A stretch of 32,213 nucleotides of DNA from contig JAFUWD010000032.1 in assembly GCA_017483645.1 (NCBI GenBank), positions 1-32,213 on the forward strand, in the 5' to 3' direction. Both the position numbers and the translations under genes were made by a program. How positions within the stretch are numbered: position 1 is the first letter of the stretch; each line of letters opens with the position of its first letter. Origin of the DNA: Muribaculaceae bacterium (GTDB lineage: Bacteria > Bacteroidota > Bacteroidia > Bacteroidales > Muribaculaceae). The notes below the pieces were generated by a model. The model had not been told where the DNA came from. It did not search any database and saw nothing but the letters and a program-made list of their open reading frames with translations. This document shows, in pieces, positions 2,441 through 32,213 of the stretch.

Positions 2441-2627
2441 CGGGGAACTCAACTAATTTTGGATAAAAGAGGCGGCGTCGAGGCATAAAAAATGAAAAAT
2501 TTGCATTTTTCATTTTGTTCTGCGCTCAACTTGCGCTAATTTTATGTCGCTTCGCTTCATGAAATTAGGCTTCGGCTCGGAAAAACTCAAACAAGTTTGG
2601 TTTTTCACTCAACTTGCACTAATTTTG
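2441..2627 (+). repeat. Promoter-bearing intergenic hairpin repeat, array A (one good unit, one diverged, one remnant)
   Basis: The unit next to the SGNH gene (2561-2627) reads GAAATTAGGCTTCGGCTCGG, then a hairpin of AAAAACTCAAAC against GTTTGGTTTTT, then CTCAACTTGCACTAATTTTG. A diverged unit lies at about 2470-2544 with a different hairpin (AAAAATGAAAAATTTGC against GCATTTTTCATTTT) and CTCAACTTGCGCTAATTTT. A remnant, CTCAACTAATTTTGG, is at 2448-2462. The same unit occurs in opposite orientation at 21702-21885. Each unit ends in a -7 box and places TTTG about 20 bp upstream, so the repeat carries a promoter. It makes up most of the 353-bp gap before the SGNH gene. Confidence 0.75.
2596..2627 (+). 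promoter_or_regulatory. Bacteroidetes promoter for the SGNH hydrolase gene, inside the repeat
   Basis: TTTG at 2596-2599 and TAATTTTG at 2620-2627 are separated by exactly 20 bp and match the -33 TTTG / -7 TAnnTTTG consensus. The -33 box sits in the right arm of the repeat hairpin. The start codon at 2633 follows the -7 box by 5 bases, so the transcript should be nearly leaderless. Confidence 0.7.
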
Positions 2628-2632
2628 CTATC

Positions 2633-3310
2633 ATGAAACAGATACTTATCATGCTTGCAGCATTCGTTTTATCGGTAAGCGCCGAAGCCAGTGACTGGGC
2701 TAAAACCGACCGATACGCGGCGGCCAACGACTCGCTGGCTCGTTGTGCCAACGACGGGCACCGCGTGGTGCTCATGGGCAACTCCATCACCGACGACTGG
2801 GTGGACTTTCATCCCCGGTTTTTCACCGACAACCACCTCATAGGCCGCGGGGTATCGGGGCAAACGAGCTCGCAGATGCTGGCGCGGTTCCGCCTCGATG
2901 TGCTGGCATTGAAGCCCCGCGTGGTGGTCATCAATGCCGGTACCAACGACATTGCCGAAAACACAGGCCCCTACAATGAGGACCTGACCATGAGCAACAT
3001 CGTGTCAATGACCGAGCTGGCGCAGCTGCATGGCATCGGCGTGGTGCTCACCTCGGTGCTGCCGAGCAACGGCTTTGTGTGGAACAAAAGCATCACCGAC
3101 GCGGCGGCCAAGATTTCGAGCCTTAACGAGCGCATCAGCCGTTATGCCCACAACAACGGCATCGCCTATGTGGATTACTATCAGCACATGGTAGTGCCTG
3201 CCACCGGGGCGTTGACTGCCCATTACACCTACGACGGCGTGCACCCCACCGCGGCGGGCTACGAGGTGATGGAAGCCTTGCTGCTGCCGGTGGTCACACA
3301 ATTGAGATAA
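2633..3310 (+). CDS. Secreted SGNH/GDSL-family hydrolase (putative esterase)
   Basis: This 225-residue protein has an N-terminal signal peptide (MKQILIMLAAFVLSVSAEA). All four SGNH blocks are present: GNSITDDW with the nucleophile Ser51, the GRGVSG glycine block (about 71-76), NAGTND with Asn105, and DGVHP with Asp201 and His204. Such enzymes remove acyl groups, often acetyl, from sugars; the substrate cannot be read from sequence. ATG 2633 is chosen because it opens the signal peptide and lies just after the -7 box; an in-frame TTG at 2597 lies inside the promoter. The alpha-amylase starts 40 bp downstream, so a shared transcript and a joint role in polysaccharide use are plausible. Confidence 0.88.
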   Translation: MKQILIMLAAFVLSVSAEASDWAKTDRYAAANDSLARCANDGHRVVLMGNSITDDWVDFHPRFFTDNHLIGRGVSGQTSSQMLARFRLDVLALKPRVVVINAGTNDIAENTGPYNEDLTMSNIVSMTELAQLHGIGVVLTSVLPSNGFVWNKSITDAAAKISSLNERISRYAHNNGIAYVDYYQHMVVPATGALTAHYTYDGVHPTAAGYEVMEALLLPVVTQLR

Positions 3311-3350: not shown

Positions 3351-6332
3351 ATGAAAAACTCACTGTATCGCCTCATCGTAGCTGCATTGCTGGCAGTGTC
3401 GGCTGTCGGCACACCGGCATGGGCGGCCTTTACGGGCGGACGCACCGACTTCCGCGACGAAACCATCTATTTTGTGCTCACCACACGTTTTTACGACGGC
3501 GACGCCAACAACAACACTTACTGCTGGGATGGCTCGAAAGACGCCGCCAACCACGACCCTGAGTGGCGAGGTGACTTCAAGGGGCTGATTGAACGTCTCG
3601 ACTACATCAAGGCTCTGGGATTCACCGCCGTGTGGATTACTCCTGTGGTGCAAAACGCTTCGGGATTCGACTATCACGGCTACCATGCCATGGATTTCAG
3701 CACCGTGGAGCGGCGACTGGAGAGCGACGATGCCAAGTTTCAGGACCTGATTGACGCGGCACACGCCCGGGGCATGAAGATTGTGCTCGACGTGGTGCTC
3801 AATCACACGGGAAATTTCGGCGAGGAAAATCTGTGCAAACTCTTCAACCGCGACTATAGCAAGCCGCAGAGCGATCTGAAACAGTGCATGGTGCCCTTCA
3901 CCCTGTCGCAGGGCGGCAAGCTCAAGGACAACTACTTGAACTTACCCGGGACCCAGCAATATAGCGACCGTCTTACCAAGATGAAAAACACCGACGGCGT
4001 GAATCACGACAGCCACAACCTGTGGCACCACTACGGCAACTTCAACTGGGATGAGCCCAACCGCTGGTGGGCACAGATTGCGGGCGACTGCGTGGACCTG
4101 AACACCGAAAACCCACAGACCTATCAATACCTCATCGACTGCTACGGCACGTTCATCAAAATGGGGGTGGACGCATTCCGCATCGACACCGGCGGACACA
4201 TCAGCCGCCTCACGTTCAACAAAGCGTTTGTGCCGGCCTTCATGGCGCTGGGCGAGCAATACAAAAGCCGACGACTGGACAACTGCCCCTTCTATATGTT
4301 TGCCGAGGTGTGCGCGCGATTCAGCGACGTGACCTATCGCAGCCAGCCGGCGCTGTCACCCTACTTCTACACGTGGCAGAGCGACGAGGCACTGCTCGGC
4401 CAGTGGAATGAAACGAGCGATTACTGGAATGGCGTGGAGGTCTACGAGTCGACCGACCCGGCCACGCTGGCCAACCAGTCGCTCTGCCTCCAGGAAGAAG
4501 CCGCCAACCGCAGCGAAAGTTCCCAACCGCGAAGCAACAACGCCCTGCTCATCGGCAACGATTACCATGCCCCCGACTACAGCCGGGCAAGCGGGCTGGG
4601 GGTGATTGACTTCACGGCGCACTGGAATTTCCAGAACGCGGGCAGGCTGTGGGGCATCCTCGACAAGGACAACCTCTACAACGACGCCACCTACAACGTG
4701 GTTTACGTCGACAGCCACGACTATGGCCCCGACAGTTTTGAGCGCTTCAACGGCGGCACCGACCAGTGGGCCGAGAACATGTCGCTCATGTTCACCATGC
4801 GCGGCATCCCGTGCCTGTACTATGGCAGCGAGATTGAGTTCCGCAAGGGCATCGTCATCGACAAGGGCACCGACCTGGCACTGAAAGACACAGGCCGGGC
4901 TTACTACGGCGGCTACCTCAAGGGCGATGTGACCGTCACCGACTTCGGGAAAGTGGCGTCGGCCAGCGGTAACGTGGCCGCCACGCTGAGCCATCCGCTC
5001 GTGCATCACTTGCAACGGCTCAACGCCATCCGCGCTGCCGTGCCGGCACTGCGCAAGGGACAATACTCCAAGCAAGGTTGTTCCAGCAGCGGCGGCTACG
5101 CGTTCAAACGCCGCTACACGGCCGGCAACATCGACAGCTACGCTCTGGTGGCGCTCAATGGAACGGCCACCTTCACCGGCGTGCTGAACGGCACCTACCG
5201 CGACTGTGTTACCGGTCACGAGATAGTGGTCACCGGCGGCACGCTCACCACCCCGTCGTTCTCGGGCAAGGGCAACCTGCGCGTCTATGTACTTAACGGA
5301 CCCGGAAAAGTGGGCGATGACGGTCCCTATCTCTACGGTGCGACCAAGCACACCCCCACCCTGCTCCCCTACGACGGCACCGAGGAAGAGGGTGACCCGA
5401 ACACGCAGTATGTCACCGGCGGCGGAAGCGGTAGTGGAACAGAAATCAACCTCGACGACTTGGAGGTTTATGAGCCCACCGTGGACGACCCCAGCGAAAT
5501 GTGCGTCTTCTACGAGGCCGACCCGTCGCGAAATGAGGTCACCGTGTGGGCGTGGAGCAGTGGCAAGAACTTCACAGGTGGATCTTGGCCGGGACAAAGC
5601 GCCACACTCAAAGGCAAAACGCCACAGGGCGACCGCCTTATCTACAAGTGGACCGGCAACGTGGCCTACGGCGGCAGTAACAAGCCCACAGGGCTAATTT
5701 TCAGCTCTTACGGCAACCAGCAGACCGAAGATTTGGCCTATGTGAACCACGGATATTATATTGACGGAGTGTTTGACCACAAAGTGGGACCCGACAGCCC
5801 CGATGTGGAGCCCGACACCACGCAGACCGTCACCAGCCACGCCACCATCTACCTGAAAGACCCAACGCCGGCGCCCGACTCATGGAGCAAGGTTTATTTC
5901 TACGCTTGGGACGACAATGGGCAACTGCTGGGCGGCTGGCCGGGAAAGCTCATGACCGATACCAAAGTGGTGAAAGGCCAAAAATTCTATTATCACACGT
6001 TCGACATTGCCAACAGCGACTATACATTCAACATCATTTTCAATCAGGGCGACGGCAGTCATCAGACCGAGGACATCAAGGGTCTGAACCGCGACACCTA
6101 CTTCGAGATTGCCACCACGACCAACAAATATGCCGTGCGCGACATCACCGACCAGTTTGCCTCCCTCACAGGCGATGTGAACGGTGACGGCGAGGTGAGC
6201 ATTGCCGATGTCACCGCACTGGTGGCTCTGGTGCTGGACGATGCGAGCAACGACAACAGCGATGTGAACGGCGATGGCGAGACTTCGATTGCCGATGTCA
6301 CCACCCTTGTGGGCTTGCTGTTGGCACAGTGA
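3351..6332 (+). CDS. Secreted GH13 alpha-amylase with two CBM26-like modules and a dockerin-like tail
   Basis: The 993-residue protein should hydrolyse alpha-1,4 links in starch or glycogen outside the cytoplasm. It has a signal peptide (about 1-25, ending AWA). A GH13 catalytic domain (about 30-540) carries DVVLNH (Asp147-His152), FRID (nucleophile Asp279), FAEVC (acid/base Glu319) and VDSHD (His456-Asp457). A C-terminal beta domain follows (to about 660). A Gly/Ser linker near 690 leads to two related starch-binding modules (about 716-810 and 830-930), each with a WPG motif (GGSWPGQ, GGWPGK) and a conserved QTED. The tail (about 940-993) has paired DVNGDGE repeats, as in the protein ending at 2279. 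No SusC/SusD pair is in the window. No terminator was seen before the next gene. Confidence 0.93.
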   Translation: MKNSLYRLIVAALLAVSAVGTPAWAAFTGGRTDFRDETIYFVLTTRFYDGDANNNTYCWDGSKDAANHDPEWRGDFKGLIERLDYIKALGFTAVWITPVVQNASGFDYHGYHAMDFSTVERRLESDDAKFQDLIDAAHARGMKIVLDVVLNHTGNFGEENLCKLFNRDYSKPQSDLKQCMVPFTLSQGGKLKDNYLNLPGTQQYSDRLTKMKNTDGVNHDSHNLWHHYGNFNWDEPNRWWAQIAGDCVDLNTENPQTYQYLIDCYGTFIKMGVDAFRIDTGGHISRLTFNKAFVPAFMALGEQYKSRRLDNCPFYMFAEVCARFSDVTYRSQPALSPYFYTWQSDEALLGQWNETSDYWNGVEVYESTDPATLANQSLCLQEEAANRSESSQPRSNNALLIGNDYHAPDYSRASGLGVIDFTAHWNFQNAGRLWGILDKDNLYNDATYNVVYVDSHDYGPDSFERFNGGTDQWAENMSLMFTMRGIPCLYYGSEIEFRKGIVIDKGTDLALKDTGRAYYGGYLKGDVTVTDFGKVASASGNVAATLSHPLVHHLQRLNAIRAAVPALRKGQYSKQGCSSSGGYAFKRRYTAGNIDSYALVALNGTATFTGVLNGTYRDCVTGHEIVVTGGTLTTPSFSGKGNLRVYVLNGPGKVGDDGPYLYGATKHTPTLLPYDGTEEEGDPNTQYVTGGGSGSGTEINLDDLEVYEPTVDDPSEMCVFYEADPSRNEVTVWAWSSGKNFTGGSWPGQSATLKGKTPQGDRLIYKWTGNVAYGGSNKPTGLIFSSYGNQQTEDLAYVNHGYYIDGVFDHKVGPDSPDVEPDTTQTVTSHATIYLKDPTPAPDSWSKVYFYAWDDNGQLLGGWPGKLMTDTKVVKGQKFYYHTFDIANSDYTFNIIFNQGDGSHQTEDIKGLNRDTYFEIATTTNKYAVRDITDQFASLTGDVNGDGEVSIADVTALVALVLDDASNDNSDVNGDGETSIADVTTLVGLLLAQ

Positions 6333-20038: not shown

Positions 20039-20617
20039 TTAGATGTGGCTGTGGAAATACCTGATGTGGTACAGATAGGGCTGCACATAGGAAATCTCCG
20101 CCGTGAGGCCGAATTGCGACTTAATAAGCAACTTCACTTCACTTTCCACGCCAATAAATTCCAATGGCATCTGCAGTCCGTAGCCCCATTGCGACGACAC
20201 CGGCAGGGTGTAGTCCGAATAGTTGAAATAGGTGGCTGCGACACTCATGTCGGTGGCATTTCCTTCAAAGGCGGTGAGTTTACCGGTGTCGTACCACTGA
20301 TTGATGTTGTAGCGTGTGTAGCGGAAGTAGATGGTTTGCCCTTTCTTGGCGCGGTCGGCCTTTCGGGGTGTGTACTTTATCACCTGCATATACACGTTTC
20401 CATCGGGGTTGATGCGATAGAATGGCGCATCTTCGCCGGTCTCAAACACCGTGTCGGCAGGAATTTCATTCACCACACGCTTGGTGGTGAGGAATGAATT
20501 GCACGAGTTTCGCTCTGTATTCAGGCGATTGGCGTAGCTCTCACTGTCGCCACACGACGCGCACACGGCCACCAACGCCGTTGCAAGAGCCATCACCACT
20601 GTTTTTGTCATGTTCAT
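20039..20617 (-). CDS. DUF4827-like lipoprotein
   Basis: The 192-residue protein has a lipoprotein signal ending AVCASCGDS (lipidated Cys22). The mature region (TERNSCNSFLTTKRVVNEIPADTVFE, then PFYRINPDGNVYMQVI) resembles the DUF4827 family of Bacteroidales lipoproteins, which I recall as FKBP-like in fold; neither the family assignment nor the fold could be tested here. Its start overlaps the nrnA stop as ATGA, so translation is probably coupled, and glmM follows 33 bp downstream. That position between nrnA and glmM is, from memory, a recurring arrangement in the order. No catalytic residues can be named. Confidence 0.7.
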   Translation of the reverse strand: MNMTKTVVMALATALVAVCASCGDSESYANRLNTERNSCNSFLTTKRVVNEIPADTVFETGEDAPFYRINPDGNVYMQVIKYTPRKADRAKKGQTIYFRYTRYNINQWYDTGKLTAFEGNATDMSVAATYFNYSDYTLPVSSQWGYGLQMPLEFIGVESEVKLLIKSQFGLTAEISYVQPYLYHIRYFHSHI

Positions 20618-21678
20618 TGTTCTATATTATTGTTTGTTTTGTCATCATCACAGGGGGCACTTCCCTTCATTTCCTCAAGGATAGAGTGAAATGTGTTCAC
20701 AGCCTCCTCTATGGTGCCATAAAACTCGCCGCCGGCAGCATTGAGATGGCCACCACCATTAAAGTATTTCTCACAAATGGTGTTCACCGCAAAATCACCT
20801 TCCGAACGGCACGACACTTTCACATAGTCCTGCTCCTCGCGGAAGTATACCACCCAGTTCACCTCGGGTATCGACAAGGGCTTGTTCACCAGCCCCTCGG
20901 TGTCGCCACGACGGTAGTTATATTGAGCAAGCTCAGCTCGAGTAAGCACTATCAGCGCCACCTTCATATCAGGAAAAAGTTCCATTTTCTGGCTCAACGC
21001 ATACCCTTGCAGACGCACGCTGTCGGCGCTGAAGGTGTTCATCGCCAGTTTGTAGAGACGGTTCCGGTCGGGATGGCGCCGCATGAGCGCCGCCACAATC
21101 TCGTAGACCTCGGCACTGTCGTTGCCATAAGTGAAATTGCCCGTGTCGGTCATCATGCCGGTATAAAGGCACTGCGCGGCAAAGCGGTCGAGCAGATTGA
21201 GGCACCCCATCTGCATAAACACGCGGAACACGAGTTCACACGTCGACGAGGCATCGGGTTCCGACACCATCACGTCAAACACCCCTTCCTCGGGCGACAA
21301 ATGGTGGTCGATAAGCACCCGCTGTGCCGACGACTGCTTGATGATTTCACCCACCTTGTCAACACGATGCAGACGGTTGAAATCAAGGCAGAAAATCAAG
21401 TCGGCATGCTCCAGAGCATAGCGAGCGCGCAATTCAGTTTTAGTGAAGACCACCACCGTGCGCACACCCGGCACAAACGCCAACGAACGAGGCACCATGT
21501 CGGGGGTCACCACCTGCACCTCTTTGCCCAGCCGGCCCAGCATGTGGGCCAAAGCCGACGACGACCCGATTGCATCACCGTCGGGCGACAGATGACAAGT
21601 CACCACAATGCTCTTGGCTCCGTCAATCATCGTCCGCAAGCGCGCAATCACACGGTTGTCTATGATATTACTTATCAT
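20614..21678 (-). CDS. nrnA: DHH-family phosphoesterase, NrnA-type oligoribonuclease/pAp phosphatase
   Basis: NrnA-type enzymes degrade very short RNAs and dephosphorylate 3'-phosphoadenosine 5'-phosphate in the cytoplasm. The 354 residues have the DHH domain metal ligands His29, Asp33 and Asp35 (CHLSPDGDA), Asp99 (FCLDFN) and the signature Asp124-His125-His126. A fourth motif with Asp178 (MMTDTGNF) follows, and the DHHA1 substrate loop GGGHLNAAGG lies at 308-317. Length matches the family. The promoter is supplied by a unit of the intergenic hairpin repeat. Its stop codon overlaps the start of the next gene by 4 bp. Confidence 0.9.
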   Translation of the reverse strand: MISNIIDNRVIARLRTMIDGAKSIVVTCHLSPDGDAIGSSSALAHMLGRLGKEVQVVTPDMVPRSLAFVPGVRTVVVFTKTELRARYALEHADLIFCLDFNRLHRVDKVGEIIKQSSAQRVLIDHHLSPEEGVFDVMVSEPDASSTCELVFRVFMQMGCLNLLDRFAAQCLYTGMMTDTGNFTYGNDSAEVYEIVAALMRRHPDRNRLYKLAMNTFSADSVRLQGYALSQKMELFPDMKVALIVLTRAELAQYNYRRGDTEGLVNKPLSIPEVNWVVYFREEQDYVKVSCRSEGDFAVNTICEKYFNGGGHLNAAGGEFYGTIEEAVNTFHSILEEMKGSAPCDDDKTNNNIEQ

Positions 21679-21733: not shown

Positions 21734-21885
21734 TTTATTTGCAATTTTCCGAGTCGCCGCCTAATTTGGCCGCGTTCAGCGGCAACATTAGTGCAAACTA
21801 AGCGAAAAACCAAAGTTTAGTTTGAGTTTTTCCGAAGTGAAGCCTAATTTATCTGAAATCAGTACAGGATGAGAGAAAATGCAAA
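21702..21885 (-). repeat. Promoter-bearing intergenic hairpin repeat, array B (two good units, one truncated)
   Basis: Read on the minus strand, unit B1 (21767-21702) and unit B2 (21850-21783) each run AAATTAGGC, a short GC-rich piece, TCGGAAAA, an A/T hairpin, TTTTC, then TTGCACTAAT-TTG. Unit B3 (about 21885-21854) keeps only the right part, with a decayed -7 box TGATTTCA. All three keep TTTG exactly 20 bp before the -7 position (TTTG at 21733-21730, 21814-21811, 21885-21882). Hairpin sequences differ between units but both arms change together. A separate small hairpin, GCCGCGTTCAGCGGC, lies between B1 and B2. The rest of this 335-bp gap (21886-21978) shows nothing recognisable before the dsbD promoter. 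Confidence 0.8.
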
Positions 21886-21978
21886 AGATATGCACAACGA
21901 ATTCAATTATGAACAAATTTGCCAACAGAAGAACGTCGCGCAGCAGTGGCATCTCGGCATGATTTCCCATGGGCAGGC

Positions 21979-32074: not shown

Positions 32075-32127
32075 ATCGAGTAGGTCGGGGAGCGTGAGCG
32101 ACAGGTTTGCGCTCCCTTTCCTCTCAC

Positions 32128-32159
32128 ACCACCGTACGTGCCGTTCGGCATACGGCGGT
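32128..32159 (-). ncRNA. Group II intron domain V
   Basis: The 32-base hairpin has stem arms CCGCCGTATGCC and GGCACGTACGGTGG capped by a GAAC loop. It shows the catalytic triad in its CGC form opposite the conserved G-U wobble, and the two-base AC bulge. These are the defining features of domain V. Confidence 0.85.
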
Positions 32160-32213
32160 TTAATTTGTTTTCAAAGAATGCCTAATCTCATAGTAGTCAA
32201 GAACACTGACCAG
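32160..32213 (-). CDS. Group II intron reverse transcriptase/maturase, last 17 codons (partial)
   Basis: On the minus strand the frame runs in from the window edge and reads LVSVLDYYEIRHSLKTN before a TAA stop at 32162-32160. The stop lies directly before domain V, as expected for a maturase gene in domain IV. The tail resembles the ends of group II intron proteins (aromatic DYY motif), but with so few residues the call rests mainly on position. Confidence 0.65.
   Translation of the reverse strand: MVSVLDYYEIRHSLKTN

Follow-up and report, generated by a model that had tools for sequence, protein, structure and literature searches.

A promoter-bearing hairpin repeat, probably mobile, at −7 boxes of Muribaculaceae and other Bacteroidales

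Results

Two arrays of one unit precede an SGNH hydrolase gene and nrnA

The window, meaning the whole 32,213-nt stretch of DNA analyzed here, comes from a Muribaculaceae genome (G000; 2.1 Mb, 79% complete) and holds four clear units and two remnants split over two arrays, as judged by sequence reading and a covariance model (R1). In agreement with the original prediction, array A on the plus strand and array B on the minus strand are built from one common unit, as both sequence reading and the model scores indicate. The two remnants were called by eye, and R1 lists neither of them. The features are as follows.

2446..2461, plus: remnant A1, the right end of an older unit (AACTCAACTAATTTTG); by eye, absent from the R1 output
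2465..2544, plus: unit A2, a diverged type with a longer hairpin apex; R1 27.8 bits, E 2.9e-6
2545..2561, plus: linker between A2 and A3, TGTCGCTTCGCTTCATG; sequence reading
2562..2627, plus: unit A3, gene-proximal; R1 87.0 bits
2596..2599, plus: putative −33 motif TTTG in the 3′ arm of the A3 hairpin; sequence reading, consensus as outlined in PMC7366714
2620..2627, plus: putative −7 box TAATTTTG of A3; sequence reading, consensus as outlined in PMC7366714
2633..3310, plus: SGNH/GDSL hydrolase gene behind array A; Pfam PF13472, E 6.5e-25, on ORF 2597-3310, start at 2633 by eye
20614..21678, minus: nrnA (DHH/DHHA1) behind array B, 23 nt from −7 box to ATG; Pfam PF01368, PF02272
21702..21767, minus: unit B3, gene-proximal, with the −7 box TAATTTTG as its 3′ end; R1 85.4 bits
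21768..21782, minus: linker between B2 and B3, CCGCTGAACGCGGCC, in which a small hairpin is possible; sequence reading
21783..21850, minus: unit B2, terminal bases TAATGTTG; R1 76.0 bits
21851..21853, minus: linker GAT between B2 and the remnant, the most frequent linker among the compared loci; sequence reading
21854..21886, minus: remnant of array B at the native −7 position, box TGATTTCA, the right half of a decayed unit or of the old promoter; by eye against the native −7 box of relatives

The units contain both TAnnTTTG at −7 and TTTG near −33, which is the pattern of the Bacteroidota primary sigma promoter as its consensus is outlined in PMC7366714. Counting confirmed the predicted spacing from TTTG to the TA of the −7 box, with 20 bases in A3, B3, B2, and the B remnant and 19 in A2. 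Unit A2 ends in TAATTTTA where TAATTTTG is expected; the relative G012 also has A2, and there its box reads TAATTTTG. Relative to a dinucleotide-shuffled expectation, TTGCACTAATTTTG (up to two mismatches) occurs four times in the window (0.30 expected) and the left half of the unit three times (0.01 expected). Tandem Repeats Finder reported no repeat in the window, and Rfam at the gathering score placed no family on the units; its matches across the window were limited to a tRNA and a domain of a group II intron. The latter (RF00029, 44.8 bits for a cut-off of 40) lies at 32075-32160 on the minus strand, near the window end and close to a topoisomerase gene.

With regard to the genes of the window, the ATG of the SGNH gene (2633) lies just 5 nt past the −7 box of A3 (window 2628-2633); the transcript could be leaderless, or translation could begin at another ATG further downstream. 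Dockerin type I domains are present in two genes (48-2279 and 3351-6332), one of them an alpha-amylase with CBM26 (Pfam); as a guess, these genes hint at a cellulosome-like or surface starch system.

The unit, −7 box included, is one hairpin with covarying arms

In an alignment of 33 units from the source and related genomes, the unit is 66-70 bases long (70-85 bases being the overall size given for the element), and its ends read AAAT(T/C)AG and CTAATTTT(G/A). The whole unit, −7 box included, is one end-to-end hairpin, whose stem comprises, from the outside in, AAATTAG/CTAATTT (the −7 box), GC/GC, a variable triplet and its complement, and an A/T-rich stem closing in CAAA/TTTG (the −33 motif). 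The boxes had been described as fixed and separate from the hairpin, which proved wrong: the −7 box itself forms the 3′ arm, its CTAATTT pairing with AAATTAG, and both arms change together, the terminal arms covarying as AAGATAG/CTATCTT, AAGATAC/GTATCTT, and, in one copy, AAGGTTG/CAACCTT. Among 43 non-canonical matches, 242 of 301 terminal-arm positions are paired, compared with at most 206 in 2000 shuffles, and in 25 of these 43, whose right arms are of other types, at least 6 of the 7 positions are paired. Changes on both sides of a pair, as expected from the covarying arms of the original prediction, occur in 47 cells of the 33-unit alignment (13.8 expected from shuffles), in 330 cells of 137 distinct model matches (76.7 when shuffled; 22 of 23 pairs changed on both sides), an alignment fitted to the model and hence leaning toward it, with slid controls reaching at most 54, and in 81 cells in other families (25.1 when shuffled; 34 matches, 30 distinct, from 20 stretches). 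In some copies the stem is longer by two pairs through matching two-sided insertions (columns 26-27 and 43-44). Units are separated by GAT (12 cases), by AAT, or by longer linkers of 12-20 bases, and most of the long ones can, by eye, fold a second small hairpin with variable arms.

Selection on structure had been suggested from this variation; the covarying arms agree with it, but not as their sole reading, because hairpin-templated repair is able to make arms covary without selection and gives the same pattern. Arm covariation may thus reflect selection or hairpin-templated repair. The choice bears on an alternative in which the unit is an immobile host regulatory structure (a cruciform, a regulator site, or a read-through RNA from a distal promoter), rarely copied and kept by selection. 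The compensatory changes at nearly all pairs speak for such a structure, whereas the arms vary too much for one sequence-specific regulator, and templated repair would dispense with the selection that it invokes.

Copies are dispersed over the genome and found across the order

The covariance model gave 68 matches in the source genome at E ≤ 1 and 61 at E ≤ 0.001, one of the 61 being an antisense echo. The repeat had been proposed to be dispersed and to form tandems, and both properties are supported, with 61 copies in the source genome rather than only the two loci of the window. Copies were found in at least 94 of 101 genomes of the genus (E ≤ 0.001), in at least 117 of 297 genomes and 23 of 30 genera of the family, and in at least 29 of 247 genomes and 23 of 174 genera of the order (both at E ≤ 1e-6), the best 51, 17, and 21 candidates per genome, respectively, having been scored, so that copy numbers and zeros are lower bounds. 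Over named genomes, a strict pattern matched at least 115 stretches, and the 80 strict-pattern matches listed are MAGs titled Bacteroidales, Muribaculaceae, Bacteroidaceae, Prevotellaceae, Porphyromonadaceae, or Prevotella, many with ruminant titles. The element is a real, widespread, and structured repeat that bears a promoter pattern.

Carriage by phages or plasmids was considered and rejected, the strict pattern giving 0 matches in the viral contig collection (viral_contigs) and plasmid sequences showing no match to array A. Strong unit matches, including a tandem pair on one scaffold, are found on two unverified and unannotated scaffolds of a human-faecal phage collection (L257, MT835658, and L258, MT836839), which may themselves be of cellular origin. 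In the distant genome G575 (L264-L267) the unit lies inside a repeat of ~240 bp whose ends resemble inverted repeats (GTCTGTCCATAAAGTC / GACTTTATAGACGGAC), and no gene start was found after four of the five copies, as if the unit had been captured by a MITE in that lineage.

Most arrays face the next gene, and the proximal −7 box is probably the better kept

Placement was assessed in 79 of the 115 loci, with 144 matches (141 without antisense echoes) in 101 arrays, 72 of which have a single detected unit; the loci were chosen by a pattern requiring an intact box, which may favor live promoters. With echoes removed, 79 of the 95 classifiable arrays are followed by a gene on their own strand and 7 by one on the opposite strand; the other 9 fall within simple ORF calls, several of which seem to have starts extended too far. 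A further 6 arrays were unclassifiable. The distance from array to gene has a median of 30 nt and is at most 150 nt in 71 of the 79 same-strand arrays. The gene-ward orientation noted originally for the two arrays of the window is therefore a general one, with units placed just upstream of genes. Independently of gene annotation, the start of RNase P RNA is found 12 nt downstream of one unit's −7 box (L026; Rfam) and that of a tRNA-Gly 11 nt downstream of another's (L275).

The proximal unit had been expected to be the better promoter, and its −7 box is indeed the better kept: in G000, G012, and G013, it is intact in 42 of 47 gene-proximal units compared with 14 of 37 distal units (p 1e-6), a comparison to be read with the caveats that the G000 loci are the top matches of a model that prefers intact boxes and that orthologous loci are non-independent. 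For arrays of at least two units, the numbers are 24 of 25 proximal versus 14 of 37 distal; removal of five strict-pattern loci leaves 38 of 43 versus 13 of 33 (p 1e-5); and among loci fetched by gene orthology alone, the least biased subset, the difference (18 of 21 versus 8 of 14) is not significant (p 0.11). Constraint on the proximal −7 box is thus partly demonstrated, that is, likely but not settled. Judging by sequence, we infer that the unit fires, and probably functions, as a promoter.

Unit content differs between orthologous promoters

The promoters of nrnA were read by eye in the 30 best-scoring of 94 orthologue-bearing genomes, most of which have one native −7 box in one place. In G000, two units separate the native leader from a decayed box, and this point is occupied by a single unit in each of G028 and G008; G012 and G013 have a single native box. 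At E ≤ 0.01, 26 of the 30 loci have no model match ahead of the gene; there is also a partial match at a contig end (L207) and one on the other strand, away from nrnA (L202). The G012 promoter itself scores 17.8 bits (E 0.036) and may be a decayed unit. With many orthologues free of units, nrnA is the best-polarized gain, subject to this weak G012 score, and the only one backed by a many-species outgroup.

Sixteen hand-chosen G000 arrays, for all of which orthologues were found in G012, were compared side by side; the genes that we take to be relA, mreB, surE, pyrG, maf, dnaX, and fur were named from their translated starts. Ahead of the SGNH gene, G012 has A2 but is without exactly 83 bp of linker and A3 (2545-2627), the flanking CTATCATGAAACAG being identical. 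Other proximal differences of one unit occur at L044 (one more in G012), L062 (one more in G000), and pyrG (L050 versus L032, one more in G012). Differing units occupy one point in the two genomes at relA, L057, L045, and mreB, the proximal unit is common to both at L046, L051, L060, and L070, and the hairpin tip is altered between them at fur (L067). No model match was found in G012 at L066, where the leader is exact, or at maf, dnaX, and L054, where the leader is unalignable. Among 17 orthologue pairs selected by eye, 14 have a leader that, despite differing unit content, aligns after the −7 box to within 2 nt; the alignment fails in the three pairs just named (dnaX, maf, and L054). Units are thus present or absent precisely at the junction of −7 box and leader.

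These comparisons bear on the immobile regulatory structure raised above. Its site would be just ahead of genes, several of which read as housekeeping genes, as is the case here; on the other hand, units or unit numbers differ at the same promoter in most of the 16 loci, and the 26 nrnA loci without a match also count against it, making this explanation quite improbable.

A different account would confine the process to tandem duplication and gene conversion, with slippage within arrays and spread by recombination through the TTGCACTAATTTTG ends and no transposition. A one-unit difference such as that at the SGNH gene could equally be a deletion between direct repeats, which permit precise deletion; by eye, the three bases between the stem and TTGCA are often identical across the units of an array; and at relA and L057 the flanks are the same in G000 and G012 but the units enclosed by them differ. 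What this account leaves unexplained is the entry into promoters without a strong model match in relatives (nrnA, and L066 with its exact leader), the 72 arrays with a single detected unit, and the nested units with other end sequences described below, and we regard it as unlikely.

Some differences between the two genomes concern the neighborhood of the arrays. The SGNH gene and a gene that we take to be penicillin-binding-protein-like are divergent neighbors in G012 (C10) and lie on separate contigs in G000 (C34 and C94), which may reflect a rearrangement or an assembly break at unit arrays. An ORF near the G000 mreB array (L004 2002-3049) has a start (MKKILGLDLGTSSIGWAMV) that we take to be like that of a type II Cas9.

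A resident −7 box lies at the left end of many arrays

Of 97 arrays, 46 have a TAnnTTT(G/A) box that ends no more than 24 bp to the left of their first unit, compared with 1-8 of 97 in six windows further upstream (echoes removed), and 51 of the 97 first units have no pattern-matching box at their left end. When arrays showing older unit sequence are removed, the box is found in 28 of 64 (1-3 of 64 in control windows); a −33-like TTG ahead of the resident box is seen in 9 of 65 (0-2 in controls, echoes included); and in other families, a resident box lies left of the first unit in 8 of 21 (0-1 of 21 in control windows). A −7 box is therefore found on both sides of the unit, the left one variable and the right one following the unit, and because the letters are the same on both sides, the junction bases can be assigned to target or unit alike. 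The possibility that the target serves as template for the −7 box of the unit was mostly rejected, since CTAATTTTG units follow boxes such as CTATCTTTA or CTACTTTTG; the exceptions are fur and L070, where the unit ends match the local box.

Nested copies are also present, in which a second unit occupies the hairpin tip just past the −33 TTTG, which in many cases now reads TTTA, and supplies TTTG anew (L045, L051, L059, and L067). The terminal arms of nested units differ (AATAATG/CATTATT, AATATTG/CAATATT, and AATGCTG/CAGCATT). Insertion at either promoter box would therefore leave the −33 to −7 spacing intact. Taken as sequence comparisons, these data suggest that the element is probably mobile, with the −7 box as its entry site.

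Search for a mover

Movement by a transposase acting in trans had been raised as a possibility in the original prediction, and movement by a known transposase is not supported. Y1_Tnp genes occur in 87 of the 101 genus genomes, namely in 80 of 94 carriers and in all 7 genomes without unit matches, many of these genomes being incomplete; they were not found in G000 (79% complete) or in 13 other carriers. A scan of 12 Y1_Tnp loci gave one strong unit match, which lies ~1.3 kb from the transposase gene, and a weak match at another locus. A RAYT/Y1 transposase was rejected as the mover on these two grounds, the absence of co-occurrence over the 101 genomes and the single strong match at 12 loci. 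In the scanned loci of at least 2 kb, no long copy with an internal gene was found, and no lone right half lay 150-4000 bp from any of 38 partnerless left half-units; with no fitting pair of half-units, these loci gave no candidate for an autonomous parent element.

The same numbers weigh on the possibility that the units are classical REP/BIME elements moved by RAYT, a Y1 tyrosine transposase. The units resemble such elements as short dispersed palindromes, with large and small hairpins alternating in arrays and no evident target duplication, and Y1_Tnp genes are common in the genus; nevertheless, their lack of association with carriers, the single strong unit match at 12 Y1_Tnp loci, and the lack of the GTAG end in the unit consensus make this the least probable of the alternatives, and a very unlikely one.

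Discussion

The anatomy of the unit, its covariation, its dispersal, its orientation, and its presence or absence at promoter junctions can be read directly from the genomes. The reading that we favor, and hold to be reasonably probable, sees the unit as a mobile, non-autonomous DNA hairpin which restores the promoter it enters, inserting 3′ of a resident −7 box; that the observed changes are transpositions is what we infer from their pattern. The 3′ half of the unit carries the −33 TTTG and a terminal −7 box TAnnTTTG, and the 5′ half is its complement. A unit would enter directly 3′ of a resident −7 box or, sometimes, into the tip of another unit, directly 3′ of its −33 TTTG. Since the entering unit terminates in the same box, the gene would keep a promoter at an unchanged leader distance, whereas the old box would be displaced by ~70-85 bp upstream and be free to decay. 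The new box would be a fresh target, and tandems would therefore build up with the youngest unit closest to the gene. The unit could in this way spread and pile up with little harm, its own box replacing the core box of the resident promoter. Its movement would be by an enzyme acting in trans on single-stranded DNA.

A broader proposal, which we put forward tentatively and which falls a little on the doubtful side, is that these units represent a class of mobile DNA that targets the primary −7 boxes of its host and itself ends in one, so that each insertion hands over both a promoter and the next target, and dozens of promoters per genome have been rewritten in many Bacteroidales. The entry point of such a unit may be DNA made single-stranded in the open transcription bubble, and base pairing with the 5′ arm may match the target to the unit end. 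Compared with the original prediction, the analysis adds the apparent insertion at a resident −7 box, the inclusion of the −7 box in the hairpin, the second hairpin in linkers, the nested units at the −33 TTTG, and the spread across the order.

If this is true, many promoters of gut Bacteroidales, such as those of nrnA, RNase P RNA, and the genes read as surE, mreB, relA, and pyrG, would be mobile DNA, and promoter turnover between related species would gain a mechanism that spares genes. The unit would also be a natural case of an element that curbs its harm by targeting and restoring promoters, and care would be needed at such sites with promoter annotation, repeats, and assembly. From a mechanistic point of view, this makes a testable claim on how small hairpins pick their target.

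Among the titles listed, a description of such an element was not found in the open-licence literature; several known systems share part of its features. Elements of the IS200/IS605 type and REP elements work in a similar way, with a hairpin entering 3′ of a motif through an enzyme acting in trans on single-stranded DNA, and BIMEs consist of alternating hairpins. Palindromic elements derived from IS200/IS605 (PATE) insert 3′ of a short fixed motif, have hairpin ends, make no target duplication, and depend on an enzyme in trans. The unit differs from PATE in that its target motif is a promoter box; no parent element or enzyme was identified in the loci scanned.

REP, BIME, and REPIN sequences are portrayed in PMC3733652 and PMC8049555 as dispersed hairpins with local arrays that form a population within a genome. 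The unit is likewise a short, dispersed extragenic palindrome of high copy number with local arrays; unlike REP as presented there, it bears a whole promoter at one end, sits at promoters, and shows no Y1_Tnp association, and the tetranucleotide end GTAG (or CGTC) that is the hallmark of REP is not conserved at the unit ends in the 33-unit alignment.

The CREE of Neisseria, as described in PMC2649163 and PMC10969869, is a short non-autonomous inverted-repeat element with many copies, often 5′ of genes, which can supply promoters and varies in presence between strains; most copies are 153-157 or 104-108 bp long and the shortest 69-73, the targets are mostly TA and are duplicated, and one promoter has its −10 completed by the insertion site. 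The unit resembles CREE, known here by this description, in being short, non-autonomous, an inverted repeat, of many copies, upstream of genes, and able in principle to supply a promoter, but differs in holding a complete promoter, targeting a −7 box, and forming tandems.

The terminal inverted repeats that characterize MITEs are present in the unit (AAATTAG/CTAATTT and its covarying variants). Within the same order, BrickBuilt of Porphyromonas gingivalis is an intergenic MITE with tandem repeats and promoter activity, which, according to PMC4596501, comprises a leader and a tail with terminal inverted repeats around a 23-nt repeat, lies 49-591 nt from genes, and has bidirectional promoters. 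Both elements are intergenic, tandem-repeat, and promoter-bearing sequences of Bacteroidales, and by that published description BrickBuilt differs from the unit in its plan of leader, 23-nt repeat, and tail, its distance from genes, and its bidirectional promoters.
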